Source of the DNA: Frankiales bacterium
GTDB taxonomy: Bacteria > Actinomycetota > Actinomycetes > Mycobacteriales > SCTD01
Direction of reading: 5' to 3'
Length of the DNA: 33,304 nucleotides
Assembly (NCBI GenBank): GCA_025465135.1
Contig: JAODNA010000041.1
Location: 1 to 33,304, forward strand
This document shows, one piece after another, positions 1-29,676 of the stretch (the stretch's first letter is position 1; every line of letters begins with the position of its first letter). The notes below the pieces were generated by a model that made no database searches, was not told the DNA's origin, and saw only the letters and a program-made list of their open reading frames with translations. The position numbers were made by a program, and so were the translations under genes.

Positions 1-139
1 GGTGATCGGTGTGCGCGTCCCACGCGTGCGACGTGAGCGTGCGCCGCGCACACCCACCGGCAGTCGCCTGACGTGTGCGCGCCCCACGCTCGCGACGTGA
101 GCGTGCGCCGCGCACACGTCGTGGGCAGCGGCGAAGGCC
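1..139 (-). repeat. Interspersed hairpin repeat, locus A (two 45-bp units)
   Basis: Two 45-bp units lie at 9-53 and 73-117, separated by a 19-bp linker (54-72). Each unit has perfect 9-bp outer arms, GTGTGCGCG and CGCGCACAC. Inside are 3-nt internal loops, a 5-bp inner stem (CACGC/GCGTG) and an 11-nt loop. The right flank GTGGGCAGCGGCGAAGG (121-137) recurs at the other two loci. Orientation is called minus relative to the array at 25869-26082. The left edge of the element may lie outside the window. No protein is proposed; the ORFs that cross it are artefacts of the repeat. Confidence 0.85.
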
Positions 140-518
140 GGCGTCTCGACGGCAGCGCATGCAGGGCAGCGGTAGACGCCATACATCGGGGCGCCGCAGC
201 GCGCGCAGTGCTGGAGATCCATGCTGCATCAGGCTGCGAATCACGTGGAAGCCGCCCGAGAGAAGGAAGCTCGCGAAGGTGACCGCCGGTGGCTGCGCCG
301 TGGAGATTCGACAGGCTCGGACTCTATCTGCGCTATCGCGAGTACAGCCGACAGGTCGACAACGGCGAACGGTAGGCGCCGGTACACGGCCGGCCTTACA
401 CATGCGCGGGCTGCGGCATTTGTTAGCGGCGTGCCGGACGCAGACGGCGAGACTGATGTTCTGCGTTGAATTGTTCAGAATCCGTCCGGCCGGGCGACTT
501 GTCGTACATGATTTCTAG
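140..518. other. Gene-poor stretch upstream of the M48 protease
   Basis: I see no credible gene here. The track ORFs at 75-518 and 221-469 have no recognisable domain, begin inside or beside the repeat, and are rich in Arg and Ala as expected of random frames in GC-rich DNA. The stretch becomes AT-richer towards the protease; the line at 421-480 is about 55% GC by hand count. It presumably holds the protease promoter, and a TTGAAT hexamer at 466-471 could be a -35 element, but no convincing paired -10 was found. Confidence 0.5.
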
Positions 519-1874: not shown

Positions 1875-1970
1875 TGGCGGAGGCGGACGGGAATCGAACC
1901 CGCCAGGACGAGATGCTCGCCCTCACCGGTTTTGAAGACCGGGGCGCCCACCAGGAACGCAGACGCCTCC
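1875..1970 (-). tRNA. selC: tRNA-Sec (anticodon UCA)
   Basis: The minus strand folds as a selenocysteine tRNA of 96 nt including an encoded CCA. The acceptor begins GGAGGCG and pairs with CGCCTCC near the 3' end. The anticodon arm reads CCGGTCTTCAAAACCGG, with TCA flanked by T and A. There is a long variable arm, and a T-arm with GGTTCGATTCC. Length and layout match the long bacterial tRNA-Sec. The eighth acceptor position reads as a T/C mismatch, so the stem has seven clean pairs by eye. It decodes the in-frame UGA of the nearby formate dehydrogenase after seryl-charging and conversion by SelA, which is not in this window. Confidence 0.95.
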
Positions 1971-2022
1971 GTCGCCGAGCCTAGGTGAGCCGCGTCGCGC
2001 GGATCGACGTAACGTCGGTGAC
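1971..2022. promoter_or_regulatory. Divergent selC / selD promoter region
   Basis: These 52 bp separate two divergent transcription units. Reading towards selC, TAGGCT (1978-1983 on the minus strand) ends 7 nt before the mature tRNA 5' end. Reading towards selD, TAACGT (2010-2015) ends 7 nt before the GTG start. Both fit the actinobacterial TAnnnT -10 box. The spacing suggests selD mRNA is leaderless and the tRNA transcript starts at or very near the mature 5' end. No clear -35 hexamer was found for either. Confidence 0.6.
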
Positions 2023-3009
2023 GTGACCACGCTCGACGTCCGGCTGACGCAGTTCGCGCACGGCGGCGGCTGCGCCTGCAAGATCCCGCCCGGGGAGCTC
2101 GAGGACGTCGTACGCGACCTCGTCGACCACGCCGGCCCCGACCTGCTCGTCGGGCTCGACAGCGGCGATGATGCAGCCGTCGTGCGCATCGACGAGCGCA
2201 CCGCCGTCGTCGTGACCGCAGACTTCTTCACGCCGGTGGTCGACGACGCCTACGACTGGGGCCGCATCGCCGCGGCCAACGCGCTGTCCGACGTCTACGC
2301 GATGGGCGGGCGGCCGATCGTCGCCGTCAACCTCGTCGGCTGGCCTCGGGACGTCCTGCCCAAGGAGCTGCTGCGGGAGGTTCTCCGCGGCGGGTACGAC
2401 GTCGCACGGCTGGCCGGCTGTCATGTCGGCGGCGGGCACAGCATCGACGACCCGGAGCCGAAGTACGGCATGGCCGTCACGGGCATCGCCGACCCGAACC
2501 GCCTGCTGCGCAACGACTCTGCCGAGCCCGGCACTCCCCTGTCCCTCACCAAGCCGCTCGGCGTCGGCATGCTCAACAACCGCCACAAGGCGACCGGGGA
2601 GGTCTTCCCGCACGCGGTCGCCAGCATGGTCGCCCTCAACCGCGAGGCGAGTGAGGCCGCACTCGCGGCAGGCTGCACAGCGGCGACCGACGTCACCGGC
2701 TTCGGCCTGCTGGGGCACGTCTACAAGATGGCCCGGGCCAGTGGCGTCACCGCCGTCATCGACGCAGCCGCCGTGCCCTACCTCGACGGGGCGCGCGAGG
2801 CGCTCCGCGACGGCTACGTCAGCGGCGGCACCCGCCGCAACCTCGAGTGGGTGGAGCCGCACCTGCTGAGCGCTGTGGGCGACGACGAGCTGCTGCTGCT
2901 GGCCGACGCGCAGACGAGCGGCGGCCTCCTCATCGCCGGCGAGATCCCGGGCGCCCCCGTGATCGGCGAGATCGTCGCGCGCCGCAACGCGGTGGTCGAG
3001 GTCCGCTAG
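2023..3009 (+). CDS. selD: Selenide, water dikinase (selenophosphate synthetase)
   Basis: SelD makes selenophosphate from selenide and ATP, the selenium donor for Sec-tRNA synthesis. The 328-aa length is normal for the family. The N-terminal GGGCACK motif places Cys17 and Lys20 exactly at the catalytic positions known from E. coli SelD, so this is the cysteine form rather than a selenoprotein form. Further family motifs are visible: GLDSGDDAAVV, TADFFTPVVDD, ANALSDVYAMGG and the later TDVTGFGLLGH. The GTG start has no leader Shine-Dalgarno but sits 7 nt after a TAACGT -10 box, consistent with leaderless translation. It is adjacent to selC and to a Sec-containing formate dehydrogenase, which explains its role. 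Its stop codon overlaps the stop of the convergent nrfD gene within one CTAG. Confidence 0.96.
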   Translation: MTTLDVRLTQFAHGGGCACKIPPGELEDVVRDLVDHAGPDLLVGLDSGDDAAVVRIDERTAVVVTADFFTPVVDDAYDWGRIAAANALSDVYAMGGRPIVAVNLVGWPRDVLPKELLREVLRGGYDVARLAGCHVGGGHSIDDPEPKYGMAVTGIADPNRLLRNDSAEPGTPLSLTKPLGVGMLNNRHKATGEVFPHAVASMVALNREASEAALAAGCTAATDVTGFGLLGHVYKMARASGVTAVIDAAAVPYLDGAREALRDGYVSGGTRRNLEWVEPHLLSAVGDDELLLLADAQTSGGLLIAGEIPGAPVIGEIVARRNAVVEVR

Positions 3010-3980
3010 GAGCCGAGGCGCGCGTTCAACCGCTCGCGCTGGGGCACGACGGTGTACTTCGGGTCGCGGGCGGACTCCTGACCCGCTTCGAAGACGCCGA
3101 AGCGGGTGCACGCGGAGCCCGCCATGAGGGCCGCCCCAGCGAGGCCCGCCGCAACGCGGCTCCGGCCGCCCAACACAGCGGCCGTCACAGCGCCGAACGC
3201 CGTCAGCGCCTTGCTGGCCCTCATGAACCGCCCCGGCGTACCGGCACGCAGCGGCTCCGCGGCCAGCCCCATGGACTGCTCCATCCGGTGCTCTGCCGCG
3301 AGCTCCAGCAGCGCGCCCCCGACCGCGAGGCGACGAGCCGGGCCCGCGTCGTGCAGCGAGGCACCGAGCAGGCCGAGGCCACCAGCGGCAGCCGCCGCCG
3401 AGCCGACGAAAACGAACGGCAGCTCCCGATGCGCCTCGTGCCACGACGGGGTGGCGGTGTCGGACAGGAGCACAGCGGTGTACGACGCAACCGCGGGTGC
3501 CGCCAGCGCCGCCAACGCACCGGCCGGGGTGCCGGCCGCACCGAGCAGCCGTCCCACCGCCCCGTCACGCAGCGAGCGAGGGAGGAAGGGCCGCAGCTCC
3601 GCCACGCCGGCCAGTCCGGCCATCGGTCCGTACGCCGTCAAGACCCAGGTGCCGACGGACATCGGCGAGGTCGGCTTCGCCACCCGCAACATGTTCGCGA
3701 ACCGCGCCGGCTTGCCGAGGTCGTGCACGAGCGCAGCCATGCTCAGCGAGATGCCCACGAGGGCTCCGAGTCGCGACGTCCGGCGCAGCGAGTCGCGCCC
3801 CGTCGCCTGCGCGCCCGCAGCCAACAGGGACGAGCCCCCGGCCAGCCCACCGAGGAACAGGTACGCCGGGATGTCGGCGGTCCATGGCGCCGCCTTCACC
3901 ACGGGCCGGCCGTAGTACGACGTGAAGTGGGCGTCGGGCACCATCTGGAACTCGTCGCGGCGCCTGCCCCGGGGGCTCAC
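3006..3980 (-). CDS. nrfD: NrfD/PsrC-type membrane anchor subunit of formate dehydrogenase
   Basis: This is a 324-aa polytopic membrane protein of the NrfD/PsrC family. Such proteins anchor molybdoenzyme complexes and pass electrons between the ferredoxin-like subunit and the quinone pool. The start of the mature family region, DAHFTSYYGRPVVKAAPW, is followed by the first membrane helix (IPAYLFLGGLAGGSSLLAAGA) and several more, including SPMSVGTWVLTAYGPMAGLAG. The track start at 4052 would give a long overlap with the upstream gene. The GTG at 3980 overlaps the upstream TGA by 4 nt (GTGA) and is preferred. It is the third gene of the operon, replacing the cytochrome b subunit found in E. coli FdnGHI. 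Confidence 0.88.
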   Translation of the reverse strand: MSPRGRRRDEFQMVPDAHFTSYYGRPVVKAAPWTADIPAYLFLGGLAGGSSLLAAGAQATGRDSLRRTSRLGALVGISLSMAALVHDLGKPARFANMLRVAKPTSPMSVGTWVLTAYGPMAGLAGVAELRPFLPRSLRDGAVGRLLGAAGTPAGALAALAAPAVASYTAVLLSDTATPSWHEAHRELPFVFVGSAAAAAGGLGLLGASLHDAGPARRLAVGGALLELAAEHRMEQSMGLAAEPLRAGTPGRFMRASKALTAFGAVTAAVLGGRSRVAAGLAGAALMAGSACTRFGVFEAGQESARDPKYTVVPQRERLNARLGS

Positions 3981-4849
3981 GAGCCGCTTCCCGCGAAGGC
4001 CGCGACGGCACCTGCCAGCAGGGTCAGCGCGGCGAGCCCGGCCTTCTTCCACATCGCCGGCAGGTCCTTCGTCGTGACGACCGGATCAGGCGGCAGGCCG
4101 TAGACCTCGGGCTCGTCGAGCAGCAGGAAGAACGCACCCATCCCACCGACGCCGTCGCCTTCGCTCTCGCCGTACAGCTTCGCGTCGTGGACACCGGCGG
4201 CGTGCAGGACGTCGACTCGTGACTGGGCACGCTCCCGCAGCTCGTCGAGGTCGCCGAACTGGATCGACTTCGTCGGGCACGCCTTCGCGCACGCCGGCTC
4301 CAGCCCTTCGCCGATGCGGTCGTAGCAGAGCGTGCACTTCTGCGCGACGCCGACCTTCGGGGTGTCCTTCTCGCCGATCCGCCGGTCGATCACGCCGAAC
4401 GGGCAGGCCGGCACGCAGTAGCCGCAGCCGTTGCAGATCTCGTCCTGCACGACAACGGTGCCGAACTCCGTGCGGAAGAGGGAGCCGGTGGGGCAGACGT
4501 CGAGGCACGCGGCGTGCGTGCAGTGCTTGCAGACGTCGCTCTCCATCAGCCAGCGGAAGTCGGCGCGGCCGTCACCGTCAGCACCGGGACGAGCCGTCGA
4601 CGGCATGCCCAGGTCGACGGGCTTCTTCTGCTCGATGAACGCGACGTGCCGCCAGGTGCTCGCGCCGAGCGCTCCCGTGTTGTCGTACGACGAGCCGAGG
4701 AAGCTCATGCCGTCGTCAGGCACGGCGTTCCACTCCTTGCAGGCGACCTCGCAGGCCTTGCAGCCGATGCAGACCGACGTGTCGGTGAAGAAGCCCTTGC
4801 GGGCCGGCGCGTCGACCCAACCGGAGGCGGTCGCGGGGTCGTACGTCAT
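3977..4849 (-). CDS. Formate dehydrogenase iron-sulfur (FdxH/FdhB-like) subunit
   Basis: This 290-aa subunit carries electrons from the catalytic subunit to the membrane anchor through four predicted [4Fe-4S] clusters. All four cysteine groups are visible: CIGCKACEVAC (C27-C37), CKHCTHAACLDVC (C107-C119), CNGCGYCVPAC (C139-C149) and CTLCYDR...CAKAC (C172-C191). A single hydrophobic C-terminal segment (about residues 268-288, GLAALTLLAGAVAAFAG) probably tethers it to the membrane, as in E. coli FdnH. There is no N-terminal signal peptide. Its ATG overlaps the stop of the catalytic subunit (ATGA), and its stop overlaps the nrfD start (GTGA), so the three genes are likely translationally coupled. 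Confidence 0.93.
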   Translation of the reverse strand: MTYDPATASGWVDAPARKGFFTDTSVCIGCKACEVACKEWNAVPDDGMSFLGSSYDNTGALGASTWRHVAFIEQKKPVDLGMPSTARPGADGDGRADFRWLMESDVCKHCTHAACLDVCPTGSLFRTEFGTVVVQDEICNGCGYCVPACPFGVIDRRIGEKDTPKVGVAQKCTLCYDRIGEGLEPACAKACPTKSIQFGDLDELRERAQSRVDVLHAAGVHDAKLYGESEGDGVGGMGAFFLLLDEPEVYGLPPDPVVTTKDLPAMWKKAGLAALTLLAGAVAAFAGSGS

Positions 4850-7800
4850 GGCTTCACCGTCTTCAGCGTGTTGCCCGTCTCCACCGTGATGCCCGCGCGA
4901 CTGCGGTACTCCTCCACGAGCCGGAGCAGCGCCGGACCGGTCGGTCGCCGGCCGGGCTGGATGTCGCAGCTGGCGGCCTTGGACTCCTGGATGTGCACGT
5001 TGGGGTCGAGAGTCAGGCCGAACAGGTCGTTGGCCGAGTCGCCCGAGACCACGGCGTCGGCGCCGACGCCCCAGTGGTAGGGCAGTCCGACCTGGTGGAT
5101 CGTCCGGCCGCCCATCGTCAGCGGTACGACGCGCTCGGTGACGAGCACGCGCGCCTCGATCGCCGAGCGGGCCGTGATGATGGTGGCCCAGCCCAGGTGC
5201 TCGAGCCCCCGCTCGCGCGCGTGCTCGGGTGAGACCTCGCAGAAGAACTCCGGCTGCAGCTCGGACAGGTACGGCAGCCAGCGGCTCATGCCGCCGGCAG
5301 TGTGGTGCTCGGTGAGCCGGTACGTCGTGAAGACGTACGGGAACACGTCACTGCCCGGGTCGTCGCCGGACGGGTTCGACAGGTTGTCCTGGCGCTTGTA
5401 GACCTCGCGCGTCGGGCTGGCCTGCTGCGGGTGCAGGGCGTTGCGCACCGGCGACTCGTGCGGCTCGTAGTGCACCGGCATCGGCCCGTCGAGCAGCCCG
5501 CTCGGTGCGTAGAGCCAGCCCTTGCCGTCCGCCTGCATGATGAACGGGTCGTCACCGGCCAGTCCGTCCGCGCCGGCTGCCCCCTTCGGTGGCCGGTACG
5601 ACGGCGGCTTGTCGACCACGAAGTCGGGCACGTCCGGCCCGACCCACTTGCCCTGGTCCGCATCCCAGCTGAGGTAGGCCTTGCGCTCGCTCCACGGCTT
5701 GCCGTCGGGGTCGGCGGACGCCCGGTTGTAGAGCTGGCGACGGTTGGCCGGCCAGGCCCAGCCCCACTCCGTCGCGACCCAGTCCTGCTCCTGCCCGGGC
5801 TTGCGACGAGCCGCCTGGTTGACGTCGTCGGCGTAGACCCCGGTGTAGATCCAGCAGCCACCGGCTGTGGAGCCGTCGGGCTTCATCTCCGTATAGGCGG
5901 ACAGCGGCTGCCCGGACTTGTCACCGCTGAGATGCCGCCCGTTGATCTCGCGGAGCACGTCCGCGGCCGACGGCTCGCCCTTCTCGTCGACGGAGTAGTC
6001 CCACGTCAGGCGCTGCAGCGGGAGGTCCCGCTCCAGCACGGAGTCCGCGAGTCGTTCCTTCAGCTTCTTGCCCAGCAGGAAGAAGAACTCCAGCTCGCTC
6101 GTGCAGTCACCGGGCGGGTCGACGGCCTTGTGGTGCCACTGCAGCATCCGCTGGGTCTGCGTGAAGGAGCCGGACTTCTCGGTGTGCGCCGCGGCCGGGA
6201 GGAAGAAGACCTCCGTCCCGATCTCCTCGGTCTTCAGCTCGCCGGTCGCGATCTCGGGTCCGTCCTTCCAGAAGGTGGCGGACTCGATCATGTTGAGGTC
6301 GCGCACGACGAGCCACTTCAGGTGCGACATGCCGAGCCGTTGCAGCTTGCCGTGCGCCGAGCCGACCGCGGGGTTCTGCCCGAGCAGGAAGTAGCCCTCG
6401 ACCTTGTCGTCGTTCATGTCGATCGCGGTCTGGTAGGTGCCGTGGTCGCCGGTGATGCGCGGCAGGTAGTCGAAGCACCAGTCGTTGCCCTTCGTGGCAG
6501 CGTCGCCCCACCACGCCTTGAGCAGGCTGACGACGTAGCTCTCCGCCTCGGCCCAGAACCCCTTCTGCTCAGGCGTGCGGATCGTGTCGAGGTAGTCGTC
6601 GAAGGTGTCCGGGTCGCCGGCCTTCGGCATCGGCAGGTAGCCGGGCAGGATGTTGAACAGGGTCGGGATGTCGGTCGAGCCCTGGATGCTCGCGTGTCCG
6701 CGCAGCGCCAGGATGCCGCCGCCGGGGCGGCCCATGTTGCCGAGCAGGAGCTGGATGATCGCGGACCCGCGGATGTACTGCACGCCGACTGAGTGGTGCG
6801 TCCAGCCGACGGAGTAGACCCAGCAGGTGGTGCGCTCGCGCCCGCTGTTGGCGGTGACCGCCTCGCAGACCTCGTGGAACAGCTCCGGCGGCACGCCGCA
6901 GATCTCCTCCACCATCTCCGGGGTGTAGCGGGCGTAGTGCCGCTTGAGCACCTGGAAGACCGTCCGCGGGTGCTGGAGCGTCTCGTCGCGCTTGATGTTG
7001 CTCGGGTCGAGCGACGGCCCGCCCGAACCGAGGTGGTGGCCCGCACCGCCGGCGGGTTCCTCGTCGACGCCGTCGTACGCCCACGACGACATGTCGTAGG
7101 AGCCCTTCTCCTCGTCGTAACCCGAGAACAGGCCGCCGAGATCCTCGCTGTCGACGAACCCCTCACCCACGAGGAACGACGCGTTCGTGTAGGCGACGAC
7201 GTAGTCCTTGAAGTACTTGTCGTTGTCGAGGATGTACTTCACGATCCCGCCGAGGAACGCGATGTCGCTGCCTGCGCGGATCGGCACGTACGAGTCAGCG
7301 ACCGCCGACGTGCGGGTGAACCGCGGGTCGATGTGGATGACCTTCGCGCCGCGCGCCTTGGCCTCCATCACCCACTGGAACCCGACCGGGTGGCACTCGG
7401 CCATGTTGGAGCCCTGGATGACGATGCAGTCAGAGTGCTGCAGGTCCTGCAGGAAGGTCGTGGCGCCGCCGCGGCCGAACGAGGCCCCCAGACTGGGGAC
7501 GGTGGCGCTGTGTCATATGCGCGCCTGGTTCTCGACCTGGATCGCGCCCAGCGCCGTGAACAGCTTCTTGATGAGGTAGTTCTCCTCGTTGTCGAGGGTC
7601 GCTCCCCCGAGGCTGGCGATCCCGAGGGTTCGGCGGGTCTTGTGGCCGTTGGCGTCGATGTCCTGCCAGGTGCGTTTGCGGGTGTCGACGATCCGCTCGA
7701 CGATCATGTCGACGGCGGTCTCGAGGTCGAGGTCCTGCCAGTCGGTCGCGAACGGCTTGCGGTAGCGCACCCTGGTCGCGCGGCCCGGTGAGTTGACGAG

Positions 7801-8082
7801 CTGCTCGCTCGCCGACCCCTTCGGGCACAGCCGCCCGCGCGACACCGGGGAGCTCGGGTCGCCCTCGATCTGGATGACGCGCTCGTCCTTGACGTAGACC
7901 TTCTGGCCGCAGCCCACCGCGCAGTAGGGGCAGACGCTGTCCACGACGCGGTCCGCGGTGCTCGTGCGCGGCACGAGAGCAGCGGTGTGCGCGGACTGCG
8001 CTGCGCGGCCGCGACCGAGGGGGTCGTCGCCGGTCAGCTGACGCACGACGGGCCACGACAGGAACGTCGTGCGCAGGTCCAT
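4846..8082 (-). CDS. fdh: Selenocysteine-containing formate dehydrogenase catalytic subunit (UGA read through)
   Basis: This single gene appears in the ORF track as two pieces, ending at 7513 and starting at 7404. Reading the in-frame TGA at 7513-7515 as selenocysteine gives a continuous 1078-aa molybdopterin oxidoreductase that oxidises formate to CO2. An N-terminal [4Fe-4S] site is formed by C51, C54, C58 and C86 (CPYCAVGC...CPKG). Sec190 sits in NQARI-U-HSAT, matching the Sec-His active site of E. coli FdnG (Sec196). Downstream, FGRGGATT and GSNMAECHPVGFQW align with the same family. The ATG at 8082 has a good ribosome-binding site (AAGGTGAG). The track extension to 8322 runs into divergent fdhD and is rejected. 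The N-terminus shows no twin-arginine signal, unlike E. coli FdnG, which suggests the active site faces the cytoplasm. Confidence 0.95.
7470..7515 (-). promoter_or_regulatory. Bacterial SECIS-like hairpin with its UGA codon
   Basis: On the minus strand the UGA (7515-7513) is followed, 14 nt later, by CCCCAGTCTGGGG (7498-7486). This is a clean 4-bp GC stem closing an AGUCU loop. As I recall the E. coli fdnG and fdhF elements, their apical loops contain the same GUCU that contacts SelB. The distance from the codon, 18 nt to the loop, is in the usual range. Lower-stem pairing was not resolved with certainty by eye, so the outer limits are approximate. Confidence 0.75.
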
Positions 8083-8115
8083 GTGCTCACCTTGCCACGT
8101 GGCACGCTGGGCGAC
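8083..8115. promoter_or_regulatory. Divergent fdh / fdhD intergenic region with a perfect palindrome
   Basis: Only 33 bp separate the two start codons. They contain a perfect 12-bp palindrome, TGCCACGTGGCA (8093-8104), placed between the fdh ribosome-binding site and the fdhD start. Its position would allow one regulator to control both directions. No regulator gene is adjacent, so the operator role is inference. If fdhD used the in-frame GTG at 8083, the palindrome would fall inside its coding region. Confidence 0.45.
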
Positions 8116-8934
8116 GTGGGCAGGCTGACCGCGCGACGCCGGGTGCTGAGGCTCGGCGGTCCGGAGCCGGTGGAGCGGCCCGACACCCTGGTCGTCGAGG
8201 AGCCGCTGGAGATCCGGGTCGGCGGACGCGCTCTCGTCGTGACGATGCGCACGCCGGGCGACGACATGGACCTCGCGGCGGGCTTCCTCGTCAGTGAGGG
8301 CGTCGTCAGCGAGGCCGGCCACGTCCGAGGCATCCGCTACTGCGCGGGAGCGGTCGACGGCGAGAACACCTACAACGTGCTGGACATCGACCTCGACCCC
8401 GGCGTACCGGCTCCGGATCCGTCGCTGGAGCGGTCGTTCTACACCACGAGCTCGTGCGGACTGTGCGGGAAGGCGAGCCTCGACGCGGTCCGTACGGCGG
8501 CGCGCTGGCCCGTCGCGGACGACCCGCTCACCATCTCCCCGAAGGTCCTGTCATCGCTGCCCGACACCCTCCGAGACGCGCAGCGGGTGTTCGACAAGAC
8601 CGGTGGGCTGCACGCCGCGGGCCTGTTCACGGCAACCGGGGACCTGCTGGTGATGAGGGAGGACGTCGGCCGCCACAACGCGGTCGACAAGGTCGTCGGG
8701 TGGGCGCTGCGCGACGGTCTTCTGCCGCTGCGCGGCTGCGTGCTGCTCGTCAGCGGCCGCGCGTCGTTCGAGCTGACGCAGAAGGCCTGGATGGCCGGGA
8801 TCCCCCTGCTCGCGGCGGTGAGCGCACCCTCCAGCCTGGCCGTCGACCTCGCCGCGGAGGCGGGCATGACCCTGGTCGGCTTCCTGCGCGGCGAGACGAT
8901 GAACGTGTACGCCGGCGCGCATCGGCTGAGCTAG
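8116..8934 (+). CDS. fdhD: Formate dehydrogenase accessory sulfurtransferase FdhD
   Basis: FdhD takes sulfur from a cysteine desulfurase and delivers it to the molybdenum cofactor of formate dehydrogenase; without it the enzyme is inactive. The 272-aa protein has the conserved RPDTLVVEEPLEIRVGG opening, MRTPGDDMDLAAGFLVSEG, and the reactive-loop motif SSCGLCGK with C114 and C117 (CxxC). The C-terminal half contains MREDVGRHNAVDKVVG and LLVSGRASFEL, also typical. The track start (7987) lies inside divergent fdh. The GTG at 8116 gives GRLTARRRV, the N-terminal pattern I recall from other actinobacterial FdhD proteins. It is divergent from the fdh operon with a 33-bp gap. Its TAG shares a CTAG with the stop of the next, convergent gene. 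Confidence 0.94.
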   Translation: MGRLTARRRVLRLGGPEPVERPDTLVVEEPLEIRVGGRALVVTMRTPGDDMDLAAGFLVSEGVVSEAGHVRGIRYCAGAVDGENTYNVLDIDLDPGVPAPDPSLERSFYTTSSCGLCGKASLDAVRTAARWPVADDPLTISPKVLSSLPDTLRDAQRVFDKTGGLHAAGLFTATGDLLVMREDVGRHNAVDKVVGWALRDGLLPLRGCVLLVSGRASFELTQKAWMAGIPLLAAVSAPSSLAVDLAAEAGMTLVGFLRGETMNVYAGAHRLS

Positions 8935-24888: not shown

Positions 24889-25869
24889 GTGAAGGTCGAG
24901 GCGGTCCAGGACATCGCCGGGCTGACCGCGTGGCATGCCGTCGAGTCGGCGTCGATGGCCCACGACCACGTCGCCCTGCCCGCGGACCCCCTGGCGGAGC
25001 GGGTGCCCACCCTCGATCCGGCCTCCCCGATGGCCGGCGAGAAGAGCGAGTACCGCGTCGGGTGGCTCGACGGCAGCCCTGCCGGTGCGATCGAGCTGAA
25101 CCTGCCGACCGTCGACAACCTGATCGCCGTGTCCGTGACCGTCCATGTGCTGCCGGAGCTGCGGCGTCGTGGTCTGGGCCGTGAGCTGCTCCAGCACGCG
25201 CTGGACGAGACGGCGACCCGGGGGCGGCCGCGGGTGTTCTTCGAGGTCCCGTCTCCGTACCCGGCCGGCCCCGCGCCCGCGGCGCCGCTGCTCCGGTCGG
25301 TCGGTGCGCGCCCGGTGCTCAAGGAGGTACGCCGGCTGCTCGACCTCAGCGACCTGCCTGACCTCGAGGCGCCGATCGCCGACGGCTACCGCTTCGAGCA
25401 GTGGGTCGACGTCGCACCGGAGGAGCTGGTCGAGGGGCTGGCCCACCTGTGCGCACGGATGTCGACCGACGCGCCGCTCGAGGACATGGACTGGGAGCCC
25501 GAGATCTGGGACGCCGCCCGCTACCGGCGGAAGGAGGCGTCAGCCCAGGCCCGGGGACGCGTCCGCTACGCAGGCGCGGCGGTGCACGTGGCCTCCGGGC
25601 AGGTCGTGGCCATGACCGACATCGGCGTCAGCAGGCACCACAGCGAGGTCGCCTACCAGTGGGACACGATCGTGCTGCACGAGCACCGGGGCCACGGCCT
25701 CGGCCTTGCCCTGAAAGCGCGCAACCACGAGCTGCTCGTGAAGTCCGAGCCCGCGACCCGCTGGGTCAACACGTGGAACGCCGAGAGCAACACGCACATG
25801 GTCGGCATCAACGAGCGGCTCGGCTTCCGGCCGGTCGACTACTGGACCGAGTGGCAGCTCGACCGGTAG
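24889..25869 (+). CDS. Double-GNAT-domain N-acetyltransferase
   Basis: This 326-aa protein carries two GCN5-related acetyltransferase folds, the arrangement also seen in mycothiol synthase MshD. The first has the acetyl-CoA motif VHVLPELRRRGLGRELLQHAL (about residues 84-104). The second has VLHEHRGHGLGLALKARNHELL near residue 263, followed by NAESNTHMVGINERLGFRPV, typical of the GNAT C-terminal half. The substrate is unknown. The GTG start follows TACGAC by 6 nt, again a leaderless layout. The TAG stop directly abuts the flank of the hairpin repeat array. Confidence 0.88.
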   Translation: MKVEAVQDIAGLTAWHAVESASMAHDHVALPADPLAERVPTLDPASPMAGEKSEYRVGWLDGSPAGAIELNLPTVDNLIAVSVTVHVLPELRRRGLGRELLQHALDETATRGRPRVFFEVPSPYPAGPAPAAPLLRSVGARPVLKEVRRLLDLSDLPDLEAPIADGYRFEQWVDVAPEELVEGLAHLCARMSTDAPLEDMDWEPEIWDAARYRRKEASAQARGRVRYAGAAVHVASGQVVAMTDIGVSRHHSEVAYQWDTIVLHEHRGHGLGLALKARNHELLVKSEPATRWVNTWNAESNTHMVGINERLGFRPVDYWTEWQLDR

Positions 25870-26082
25870 CCGCCCTTCGCCGCTGCCCACGTCAGTCGAC
25901 TGCCGGTGGGTGTGCGCGGCGCACGCTCACGTCGCACGCGTGGGACGCGCACACGTCAGCCGACTGCCGGTGGGTGTGCGCGGCGCGCGCTCACGTCGCA
26001 CGCGTGGCACGCGCACACGTCAGTCGACTGCCGGTGGGTGTGCGCGGCGCACGCTCACGTCGCACGCGTGGCACGCGCACAC
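25869..26082 (+). repeat. Interspersed hairpin repeat, locus B (three 64-bp tandem units)
   Basis: Three tandem 64-bp units start at 25891, 25955 and 26019. Each is a 19-bp linker (containing the palindrome CAGTCGACTG in units 1 and 3) followed by the 45-bp hairpin at 25910-25954, 25974-26018 or 26038-26082. The hairpin arms are identical to those at loci A and C but in opposite orientation. In unit 2 a base change in the inner stem still allows a G-U pair. The conserved flank (reverse complement of GCGGCGAAGGGCGG) runs from the GNAT stop codon. The array lies between convergent genes. Confidence 0.95.
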
Positions 26083-26107: not shown

Positions 26108-26626
26108 TCACGTGCCGGGCTCGAGTGGCTCGAGCGCGAACAGCCGGATGTCACGCTGGGTCCGGCTGCGGTAGACGTCGTACGTCCCGGCCAGGTCGAC
26201 GAACCGCGCCCAGACGAGCTCCCGCTGCGGCCCGTCGAGCAGAGTGGCACGGACCCCCACGTCCTGGCCGCCGATCGTCACCGTCGCGCGTGGATCGGCC
26301 AGCAGGTTGCTGCTCCAGGCGGGGTGCTGCTGCTGCCCGAAGTTGCTGCCCACCACGTAGAGACGTCCGGGATCGCGCACGTAGAGCAGCGGCGAGGTGC
26401 GCGGTTGCCCGGTCCTCGCTCCGGTGGTGGTGAGAAGCAGCATCGGTGCGCCGATCGGACCGAACAGGGTGCGGCGACCGCGGCTGCGCACGAGCAGCCG
26501 ACGGTCGAGCGGCATCGAGACCCGGATGAGCCAGGAGCCGAGCCGCGTCGACCCGACCTTGCTCGCGGGCTTCTGCAGGCGGCTGCCTGCCCTGCCCCAG
26601 CGGACGTCGGGGAACGGGTCGGTCAT
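26108..26626 (-). CDS. Deazaflavin (F420)-dependent nitroreductase-family protein
   Basis: This 172-aa protein belongs to the Ddn-like flavin/deazaflavin oxidoreductase group (DUF385, split beta-barrel). Diagnostic parts are LLLTTTGARTGQPRTSPLLYV, followed by LYVVGSNFGQQQHPAWSSNLLADPRATV. Members in mycobacteria use reduced F420 to reduce quinones or nitroimidazoles; the cofactor here is inferred from the family. The ATG at 26626 is 2 nt downstream of the stop of the DinB-like gene, so the two are likely co-transcribed. The longer track frame to 27046 overlaps that gene and is not real. Confidence 0.9.
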   Translation of the reverse strand: MTDPFPDVRWGRAGSRLQKPASKVGSTRLGSWLIRVSMPLDRRLLVRSRGRRTLFGPIGAPMLLLTTTGARTGQPRTSPLLYVRDPGRLYVVGSNFGQQQHPAWSSNLLADPRATVTIGGQDVGVRATLLDGPQRELVWARFVDLAGTYDVYRSRTQRDIRLFALEPLEPGT

Positions 26627-27214: not shown

Positions 27215-27640
27215 GTGCCGACAGCCGTCCACGCTCCTCGCGCGCGGGTCGAGGCCGCGTGCGCCGCCCACGGCCAGGCTGCCGTCGCGGATGCCTGCAT
27301 GCGGCTGATGGCCGGTGCCGACATCGACCCCGTGATGCGCGCGGTCTTCGGCGACCAGCACAGCCCGGCCTGGCTGAAGAGCGAGGTCAACCGCTACTGG
27401 CTGCGCGTCTGGGGCGCCCGCGGTCTGCTGTGGAGCTGGGACCCGCGCGCCGTCCCCTCCGTGCGGACCGCGCTCGGCGACGAGGCCTGGCGGGTGCGGG
27501 AGATGGCGGCGAAGGTCGTCGCCCGTCACCGCGTCGACGACCTGCAGCCCGTGGTGGCCGGGCTCGTCCACGATCCCGTTCCACGGGTCCGCGCGGCCGC
27601 ATCCCGCGCCCTTGCCCTCCTCGCCGTTGCCGACCGCTGA
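27215..27640 (+). CDS. HEAT-repeat protein
   Basis: This 141-aa helical protein has a HEAT-type repeat in the C-terminal half: AVPSVRTALGDEAWRVREMAAKVVARH, then LQPVVAGLVHDPVPRVRAAASRALALL. The N-terminal half (RVEAACAAHGQAAVADACMRLMAG) is helical without a known motif. It presumably mediates protein-protein contact. The GTG start is chosen because the track start at 27155 overlaps the divergent DUF664 gene and its ribosome-binding site. It is convergent with the ABC exporter, and a hairpin repeat lies between the two stops. Confidence 0.78.
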   Translation: MPTAVHAPRARVEAACAAHGQAAVADACMRLMAGADIDPVMRAVFGDQHSPAWLKSEVNRYWLRVWGARGLLWSWDPRAVPSVRTALGDEAWRVREMAAKVVARHRVDDLQPVVAGLVHDPVPRVRAAASRALALLAVADR

Positions 27641-27683
27641 TCGCTCATCCGGCCACATGCGCTAAGGCCACTTCTCCTACGCC

Positions 27684-27764
27684 GGGTGATCGGTGTGCGC
27701 GCCCCACGCTTGCGACGTGAGCGTGCGCCGCGCACACGTCGTGGGTCGCGGCGAAGGGCGGCTG
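27684..27764 (-). repeat. Interspersed hairpin repeat, locus C (single unit)
   Basis: One 45-bp unit (27693-27737) has the same orientation and arms as locus A. It shares with A the left flank GGTGATCG and the right flank GTCGTGGG...GCGGCGAAGG. It lies between the stop of the HEAT protein gene (27640) and the stop of the convergent ABC exporter (27769). The position fits a bidirectional terminator or REP-like element. Confidence 0.9.
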
Positions 27765-27768
27765 GGTC

Positions 27769-29676
27769 TCAGTCGACGACGGGGATGGCCTGCCGGGAGA
27801 ACTGCGTCCGGTAGAGCTCGGCGTAGAGCCCGTCCCGCTCCAGCAGCTCGTCGTGGCGGCCGCTCTCCACGATGCGCCCGTCGTCGACGACGAGGATCTG
27901 GTCCGCCTCGCGGATGGTGGACAGCCGATGCGCGATGACGAGCGAGGTCCGGCCGGCGAGAGCCGTCGACAGCGCCCGTTGCACCGCGACCTCGCTCTCG
28001 CTGTCGAGGTGGGCCGTGGCCTCGTCCAGGACCACGAGGCCGGGCGCCTTCAGCAGCAGGCGGGCGATGGCCATGCGCTGCTTCTCGCCACCCGACAGCC
28101 GGTAGCCGCGGTCGCCGACGACGGTGTCGAGACCGTCGGGCAGCGACCGGACCAGCGGGCCGACCTGGGCGCTCTCGAGCGCGCCCCACAGCTCGTCGTC
28201 CGTGGCCTCGGGCCGGGCGTAGGCGAGGTTGGCCCGGATCGTGTCGTGGAACATGTGCGCGTCCTGCGTCACCACCCCGATCACGTCACGCAGCGACTGC
28301 AGCGTCACGTCGCGGACGTCGAGCCCACCGACCCGCACACTTCCCCGCTGGACGTCGTACATCCTGGTGACGAGCTGGCTGATGGTCGTCTTGCCGGCGC
28401 CAGACGGTCCCACCAGTGCGATGAGCTCCCCCGGTTTGGCCGAGAAGGACACGCCCTTGAGCACCGGCGCAGAGACGGTCTGCTCGAGCACGGCGACGGA
28501 CTCCAGCGAGGCGAGCGAGACCTCCTCTGCCTGCGGGTAGCGGAAGTGCACGTCATCGAACTCGAGCGAAGGCACACCCGACGGCAGTACGACGGCGTCG
28601 GGCTTCTCCGCGACCATCGGCTCGAGGTCGAGCACCTCGAAGACGCGCTCGAAGGACACGAGGGCGGTCATGATGTCGACCCGCACGTTGGAGAGCGCCG
28701 TGAGAGGCCCGTACAGGCGGGTCAGCAGGCTGGCGAGTGCGACGACGGTCCCGATCTTCAGCGTGCCGTGCGCGGCATAGGTCCCGCCGACGCCGTACAC
28801 CAGCGCCGTCGCCAGCGCAGCCACCGTGGTCAGGGCGACGAAGAACACCCGCCCGTACATCGCCGAGATGATCCCGATGTCGCGGACCCGGCCGGCCCGA
28901 CCGCGGAACTCCCGCTCCTCGTGCTCGGGACGGCCGAACAGCTTGACGAGCAAGGCACCCGAGACGTTGAACCGCTCCGTCATCGAGTTGTTCATCTCGG
29001 CGTTGAGGCTGTAGCTCTCGCGCGTGAGCTCCTGCAGCTTCTGACCGAACAGCTTCGCCGGGATGATGAACACCGGCAGGAGCACGAGCGACAGGAGCGT
29101 GATCTGCCACGACAGGAAGAACATCACCGACAGCGCCACGGCGACGCCGATGACGTTGCTGACGACGTTGGACAGCGTCCCCGTGAAGGCCTGCTGCGCA
29201 CCGAGCACGTCGTTGTTGAGACGGCTGATCAGGGCGCCGGTCTGCGTGCGGGTGAAGAATGCGATCGGCATCCGCTGCACGTGCCCGTAGACCTGCGCGC
29301 GCAGGTCGTAGATCAGCCCCTCACCGATGCGCGCGGAGTACCACCGGTTGATGAGGGCCAGCACCGCGTCGAAGAGCGACAGCCCGGCCACGAACAGCGC
29401 CAGTCCGAGCACGAGGCCGGGACGGCCGGTGGCAGGCGGGTTGTTGCCGATGCCGTCGTCGATGATCCTCGCGAGCACCAGCGGCGGCGCAACCGCGATG
29501 ACGGCGTCGATCACGATGACGACGAGGAACGCGATCAGCTGGCGCTTGTAGGGCGCCGCGAACTGCGCGATGCGCCGGATCGTGCCCGGGGCGAGCTTCT
29601 TGCCGACGACGGCGGGGTCGCGCGAGAACGACCGCATCATCTGCATGGGGCCGGAGTGGCCGGGTCCCATCGTCAC
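27769..29676 (-). CDS. ABC transporter, fused permease and ATPase (exporter type)
   Basis: This 635-aa half-transporter would work as a dimer. The N-terminal six-helix exporter domain starts after about 45 residues (APYKRQLIAFLVVIVIDAVIAVAPPLVLARIIDDG). The ATPase domain has Walker A GPSGAGKTT (about 418-426), signature LSGGEKQRMAIARLL (about 527) and Walker B GLVVLDEATAHLD. The substrate is unknown. The Met-rich N-terminal tail (MTMGPGHSGPMQMM) is common in actinobacterial relatives. The GTG at 29676 is preceded by GGAAGGGGG; the ATG two codons later is an alternative. It follows the acyl-CoA dehydrogenase by 34 bp on the same strand, so co-transcription is likely. Confidence 0.93.
   Translation of the reverse strand: MTMGPGHSGPMQMMRSFSRDPAVVGKKLAPGTIRRIAQFAAPYKRQLIAFLVVIVIDAVIAVAPPLVLARIIDDGIGNNPPATGRPGLVLGLALFVAGLSLFDAVLALINRWYSARIGEGLIYDLRAQVYGHVQRMPIAFFTRTQTGALISRLNNDVLGAQQAFTGTLSNVVSNVIGVAVALSVMFFLSWQITLLSLVLLPVFIIPAKLFGQKLQELTRESYSLNAEMNNSMTERFNVSGALLVKLFGRPEHEEREFRGRAGRVRDIGIISAMYGRVFFVALTTVAALATALVYGVGGTYAAHGTLKIGTVVALASLLTRLYGPLTALSNVRVDIMTALVSFERVFEVLDLEPMVAEKPDAVVLPSGVPSLEFDDVHFRYPQAEEVSLASLESVAVLEQTVSAPVLKGVSFSAKPGELIALVGPSGAGKTTISQLVTRMYDVQRGSVRVGGLDVRDVTLQSLRDVIGVVTQDAHMFHDTIRANLAYARPEATDDELWGALESAQVGPLVRSLPDGLDTVVGDRGYRLSGGEKQRMAIARLLLKAPGLVVLDEATAHLDSESEVAVQRALSTALAGRTSLVIAHRLSTIREADQILVVDDGRIVESGRHDELLERDGLYAELYRTQFSRQAIPVVD

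Follow-up and report, generated by a model that had tools for sequence, protein, structure and literature searches.

Hairpin repeats at gene ends in a little-known actinobacterium, found among 24 family genomes only where a nuclease gene is present

We describe a family of hairpin repeats that has spread to gene ends in a little-known actinobacterium and that, among 24 genomes of its family, was found only where one nuclease gene is present. This association with a single gene hints at, but does not prove, an unexpected enzyme at work in spreading the repeats. We consider it somewhat probable, by analogy with RAYT/REP systems (REPtrons), that the repeats are REP-like elements spread by this 307-aa Vsr-like nuclease, in the manner of a REPtron with a non-RAYT enzyme.

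The repeat element in the window and in related genomes

The window, meaning the whole 33,304-nt stretch of DNA analysed (Frankiales bacterium, contig JAODNA010000041.1), contains six 45-bp units with perfect 9-bp outer arms, where none were expected from 100 dinucleotide-preserving shuffles. The first-pass annotation had described these units, their copy numbers of 2, 3 and 1 at three loci, a 64-bp period and common flanks, all of which we confirmed. It had also placed two loci between convergent genes, which holds for 25910-26082 and 27693, the third (9-117) being at the contig start. Two loci, 9-117 and 27693, are oriented opposite to 25910-26082. The features are as follows.

1-8, minus strand: start of the right flank of the first element (CGATCACC on the minus strand), the remainder past the contig edge
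9-53, minus strand: 45-bp palindromic unit, first element
54-72, minus strand: 19-bp linker, first element
73-117, minus strand: 45-bp palindromic unit, first element
121-143, minus strand: left flank, first element, with 2 mismatches to AGCCGCCCTTCGCCGCTGCCCAC
24889-25869, plus strand: GNAT acetyltransferase gene, its stop TAG overlapping the start of the left flank of the second element
25868-25890, plus strand: left flank, second element, exactly AGCCGCCCTTCGCCGCTGCCCAC
25910-25954, plus strand: 45-bp palindromic unit, second element, identical to the genome consensus
25955-25973, plus strand: 19-bp linker GTCAGCCGACTGCCGGTGG, second element
25974-26018, plus strand: 45-bp palindromic unit, second element
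26019-26037, plus strand: 19-bp linker, second element
26038-26082, plus strand: 45-bp palindromic unit, second element, the usual right flank being absent beyond it
26108-26626, minus strand: F420H2-dependent quinone reductase-like gene, convergent neighbour of the second element
27299-27640, plus strand: HEAT-repeat gene, left neighbour of the third element
27666-27685, minus strand: right flank, third element, exactly CCGGCGTAGGAGAAGTGGCC
27693-27737, minus strand: 45-bp palindromic unit, third element
27741-27763, minus strand: left flank, third element, with 2 mismatches
27769-29676, minus strand: ABC transporter gene (membrane and ATPase), convergent neighbour of the third element

No Rfam family matched the repeat units in a search of the window, the sole match being a tRNA-Sec at 1879-1970. 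Between the first element and this tRNA (120-1870) no gene passes our codon-usage caller, though ORFs are present, and the stretch is possibly degraded or foreign sequence. The tRNA-Sec (minus strand) adjoins an AIR-synthase-like gene, probably a selenophosphate synthetase, and the same stretch also holds NrfD, 4Fe-4S, molybdopterin-oxidoreductase and FdhD-like genes (2023-3009, plus; 3006-7404, minus; 8143-8934, plus). Positions 1879-8934 have the look of a selenocysteine formate dehydrogenase cluster, whose molybdopterin-oxidoreductase ORF begins at profile position 120, as would fit a putative Sec UGA upstream.

Using a covariance model (R1) built from exact-arm copies, we detected 38 units, distributed over 18 loci, in the genome that the window comes from (G000; 3.66 Mb in 235 contigs, 86% complete). 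The congener G003 has about 26 units at 21 loci. The exact-arm pattern occurs 24 times in G000, against 0 for a reversed control. The family is therefore not restricted to the six copies in the window, an outcome that would have spoken against the first-pass annotation; other loci of G000 and relatives carry it. In GTDB r220, a set that G000 possibly lies outside, the sole match to the exact pattern was the G003 record JAENVS010000026.1 (Frankiaceae bacterium), and no match indicating viral carriage was found in IMG/VR. Searches in depth covered one GTDB family (24 genomes, mostly drafts) of one order. Among individual matches, one in G060 was dropped, its surroundings looking coding and showing no repeat features; one at G003:C37:15759 lies inside a called gene, and one at G000:C167:41887 is doubtful. 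In the literature searched, where coverage of subscription papers was thin, we found no account of this repeat family or of nuclease-linked repeats.

An element consists of a left flank AGCCGCCCTTCGCCGCTGCCCACGAC, 1–5 hairpin units, usually with a 64-bp period, and a right flank ending CCGGCGTAGGAGAAGTGGCC, and array sizes differ by 64-bp steps. The linker between units is 19 bp (GTCAGCCGACTGCCGGTGG) and near-identical at all loci; since the linkers are for this reason not spacers, we rejected a CRISPR array. In G000 the left flank is confined to hairpin loci, as is the right flank at up to 1 mismatch; at three mismatches the right-flank pattern occurs at the background level of control searches. 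Because the flanks occur at hairpin loci only and are common to most of them, the recent element is one composite unit with defined ends. Older arrays on contig C149 of G000 are without left and right flanks. Several contigs begin at or near repeats (window 1-117, G016:C157:44, G012:C164:78, G003:C26:184), so further copies have probably been lost from view at assembly breaks, and all counts should be read as minima.

Hairpin structure, position and insertion at gene ends

The recent G000 copies show no covariation because they have almost no variation. We therefore read structure from an alignment (A3) of 25 family members comprising recent and older G000 copies and G003 copies. The outer stem of 9 pairs, with about 27 nt between its arms, is kept through two-sided changes at two pairs, U-A to C-G in 6 sequences and G-C to A-U in 6. 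Two-sided changed cells numbered 15, compared with 6.9 ± 1.9 in shuffles, none of 500 of which reached 15, in a test where kinship alone can lift sequences above such shuffles without structure. Judged from this alignment, the outer stem appears to covary across relatives. In the inner 5-bp stem pairing is kept in 74% of cells, and one of the five pairs is open in 10 of the 25 sequences and another in 14; the inner region is conserved as sequence, not as pairing (CACGCTCACG followed by CGCACGC). Of the two-stem hairpin proposed in the first-pass annotation, then, the outer stem stands and the inner stem does not, the two-stem form being a feature of young copies only. The G-U change in the unit at 25974, which had been taken as a sign of selection on structure, says little, since the inner stem belongs to recent copies only; in the transcript of the other strand the same change is an A-C mismatch. 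A one-unit element folds end to end into a single imperfect hairpin on either strand, its flanks being imperfect inverted repeats. The bases adjoining units are GAC/GTC, GTGG or CGATC, and the GTAG tag is absent.

The repeats are extragenic, their loci falling in gaps between called genes. Gene neighbours come from our own codon-usage gene calls, on which the following counts depend. Mapping relative to gene 3′ ends, as the first-pass annotation had proposed, places the elements mostly between the stop codons of convergent genes: 14 of the 17 G000 loci whose neighbours are both known lie there, and over four genomes 31 of 57 loci are convergent, 23 tandem and 3 divergent. Among element-free junctions 54 of 404 are convergent, giving P of about 3e-11 for the convergent bias of elements. 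This baseline is fairer than one restricted to gaps of at least 40 bp, which overstates the bias because insertion itself lengthens gaps. Older elements are also present, one convergent pair holding a diverged copy in both species (L016 in G000, L021 in G003).

Congeners have empty sites between orthologous gene pairs at five loci (L012, L005, L010, L009 and L018). At L012 the two genes are 101 bp apart in G000, which carries the element, 11 bp apart in G003 and 29 bp apart in G002; in G001 the distance is 0 bp and the stop codons overlap in a shared CTAG. The L005 genes are separated by 169 bp where the element is present and by 9 and 23 bp in congeners. These clean empty sites show that the elements were inserted in the G000 lineage, in slots adjoining stop codons. 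With near-identical dispersed copies, constant flanks and such empty sites, the earlier description of the repeat as REP-like and mobile in evolutionary time is upheld. No consistent target-site duplication was seen by eye in alignments of occupied and empty pairs. At two loci, L005 and L014, one end of the element runs into a GTCA/TGAC that was already there at the gene end; from these two cases only, this suggests insertion via microhomology.

Some neighbouring sequences deserve mention in their own right. At the empty sites L040 (G003) and L039 (G002), TAGCCGCCC, equal to the element's left end, already follows the stop codon, a possible insertion-site preference or a chance result of base composition. 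In G001, which lacks this repeat family, the gap orthologous to the L018 site is filled by some 100 bp of unrelated sequence that contains an inverted repeat of its own (L035, G001:C143:3000-4200, about 513-612). At L011 the end of an HNH-nuclease-like gene (DNGQCLCRHHHRAK) adjoins the array at 3951-4123 as its left neighbour, and relatives of this gene occur at several places in G003.

The position of the elements bears on the first-pass suggestion of a bidirectional terminator. One could suppose that they are primarily terminators or stabilisers of mRNA 3′ ends, selected between convergent genes and spread by recombination or an unrelated transposase, with the nuclease a bystander. The strong bias toward convergent gene ends (only 3 divergent loci), an RNA hairpin stable on both strands and an outer stem conserved with two-sided changes all agree with this. 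Yet the elements show no U-tract or T-run, as an intrinsic terminator should, though the hairpin is G+C-rich; the same gene pairs occur without an element in congeners, with gaps of 0–30 bp, so a terminator role is not needed there; the inner sequence and the outside flanks are conserved beyond the needs of termination; and the joint presence with the nuclease gene is left unexplained. We consider this explanation unlikely, and any terminator activity secondary or incidental.

The defined ends and empty sites, together with two flanks that pair imperfectly, would also suit a MITE-like non-autonomous derivative of a DDE-type insertion sequence, its ends being imperfect terminal inverted repeats and its parent lost or hidden in the missing part of an assembly only 86% complete. 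We regard such an origin as distinctly unlikely: the pairs inspected by eye gave no consistent target-site duplication, the left flank and exact right flank occur at hairpin loci only, so that no longer element with the same ends is seen, MITEs do not usually contain arrays of repeated inner units, and the nuclease association again goes unexplained.

A nuclease gene that accompanies the repeats

In G000 a 307-aa gene (G000:C149:37958-38881) lies between two diverged repeat arrays (C149:37837-37945 and 38955-39256). Its G003 orthologue is at the same place, between the same MalK-like and asparaginase genes, and is again bracketed (L057). The two units downstream of it (52276-52384, G003:C36) are oppositely oriented; elsewhere arrays run head to tail. 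The C-terminal domain of the protein gives matches to MTES_1575 and DUF559 that fall short of the Pfam cut-offs, and its N-terminal half resembles AbiEi antitoxins. MTES_1575/DUF559-type domains have the Vsr-type restriction endonuclease fold (PMC3710099), and these sub-threshold matches point to a Vsr-like fold for the nuclease. The best solved relative, the catalytic domain of a mobile-intron endonuclease (3r3p), matched at E 0.41, too weak to count alone. A motif, FEADG..(F/Y)HSTD.QIAADQ.RDR, is nearly invariant across five genomes, and dN/dS between the G000 and G003 genes is 0.13. The protein matched nothing in NCBIfam, no match to the gene was found among 72,556 plasmid records, and the loci examined held no further paralogues whose flanks could be compared. 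A RAYT-type transposase, which the first-pass annotation had in mind, did not appear, G000 (86% complete) having no Y1_Tnp (PF01797) match at E<=1; the Vsr-like nuclease is linked instead.

Detection of the repeats in G000, G003 and, weakly, G016 came first and made no use of the gene, which was sought afterwards. It is present in 5 of the 24 family genomes (G000, G003, G016, G012 and G020), in three genomic contexts, and a profile run over 399 genomes of the order recovered no genomes but these five at E<=1e-40. Gene presence then predicted repeats in G012 and G020. The congeners G001 and G002 have no nuclease gene, and repeats were not detected in them. Altogether, no repeat copy was detected in the 19 family genomes without the gene by models from gene-bearing genomes, which would miss unrelated palindromes. 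The chance of 5/5 versus 0/19 is 2.4e-5 if genomes are independent, a figure to be read with the relatedness of the genomes and the three contexts in mind.

Palindromes stand on both sides of the gene in all five gene-bearing genomes: two upstream and one downstream in G012, two and two in G016, with a 63-bp period where repeated, and one and one in G020. In these three genomes units measure 42 nt between TGTGC and GCACA, nearly the same as the 43 nt in G000, and flanking copies share one orientation, those of G000 being inverted. Because the model used for the family search (R3) was seeded with the flanking copies of G012, G016 and G020, independent evidence comes from the dispersed copies and the absences, not from the flanking matches in those genomes. 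Dispersed copies occur in four of the five genomes, those of G012 and G016 often lying right behind stop codons. G020 has its two flanking copies only, and a further 427 kb of it, read directly, yielded no additional ones; a gene without dispersal speaks against the nuclease as the spreading enzyme.

The binding sites of AbiEi antitoxins are inverted repeats in their own promoter (PMC3985639, PMC7319586), and with copies just upstream of the nuclease gene in 5/5 genomes the palindromes might be operators through which the AbiEi-like half autoregulates the gene, other copies forming a regulon or decoys, but this is improbable as a full account given equal copies downstream in 5/5 and dispersed copies that follow the 3′ ends of genes and are almost never found between divergent genes, the place expected of operators. 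An additional operator role for the upstream copies may be partly true, leaving the downstream and dispersed copies unexplained.

A possible mechanism and comparison with known systems

Returning to the nuclease as the enzyme that spreads the repeats, the AbiEi-like half would recognise the palindrome and the Vsr-like domain would cleave there, after which the element would be copied into a new site by repair or replication. New copies would enter gene-free slots, chiefly between convergent stop codons, leaving reading frames and promoters undisturbed. RAYTs are thought to propagate classical REPs similarly. We know of no Vsr-type nuclease that transposes DNA, and the catalytic role given to this one draws on analogy and association. 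More tentatively, the system may belong to a new class of REP propagation, in which a Vsr/EDxHD-type nuclease with an AbiEi-like half spreads its own palindromes into gene 3′ ends, independently of RAYTs.

To our knowledge, no enzyme is known for most short bacterial palindromic repeats, the GTAG REPs alone having one, RAYT. A repeat family bound to one nuclease gene other than a RAYT would mean that REP-like systems had more than one origin, and would offer orphan AbiEi/Vsr-like nuclease genes a possible role. The repeat and the nuclease form a compact, testable two-part system.

Short extragenic imperfect palindromes in many near-identical copies and regularly spaced clusters recall GTAG-REPs and REPINs with their RAYTs, and as short, imperfect, dispersed and extragenic palindromes the repeats are REPs in the broad sense. 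The hallmarks of REPtrons are a repeat-gene-repeat arrangement, dispersed repeat copies and joint presence or absence (PMC2817692, PMC3116915, PMC3733652); here too one gene is bracketed by repeats and gene and repeats are correlated in presence. Unlike GTAG-REP/RAYT systems, this one has neither a Y1/HUH transposase nor a GTAG tag, and its linked gene is a Vsr-like nuclease. Its 42–45 bp units stand head to tail, whereas REPs mostly form inverted pairs, and in contrast to RAYT/REP loci the gene-flanking copies are not always inverted.

Other families share single features. CGTC-type and untagged REPs, the latter reported for M. tuberculosis and D. radiodurans, are likewise dispersed palindromes without a RAYT, but have 4–5 bp loops, 8–9 bp stems and apparently no dedicated enzyme (PMC3733652), whereas the present loop of about 27 nt has conserved sequence and a nuclease gene is linked. 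Bacterial MITEs are similarly short and non-coding, with defined ends and empty sites, and their inverted repeats have a possible counterpart in flanks that pair imperfectly; the present elements differ in their arrays of internal units, and neither a parent insertion sequence nor a consistent target duplication was found. By weak profile matches, the domain relatives of the linked protein are AbiEi antitoxins, DUF559, MTES_1575 and Vsr-type nucleases, among them the EDxHD homing endonuclease I-Bth0305I (3r3p; PMC3943268). It differs from these AbiEi and Vsr relatives in joining an AbiEi-like half to a Vsr-like domain, in not being intron-encoded and in being bracketed by palindromes that recur genome-wide. 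Because the Y1 enzyme and the GTAG tag are missing, we do not file the repeat as a GTAG REP; by analogy, it would work like a REPtron with another enzyme.
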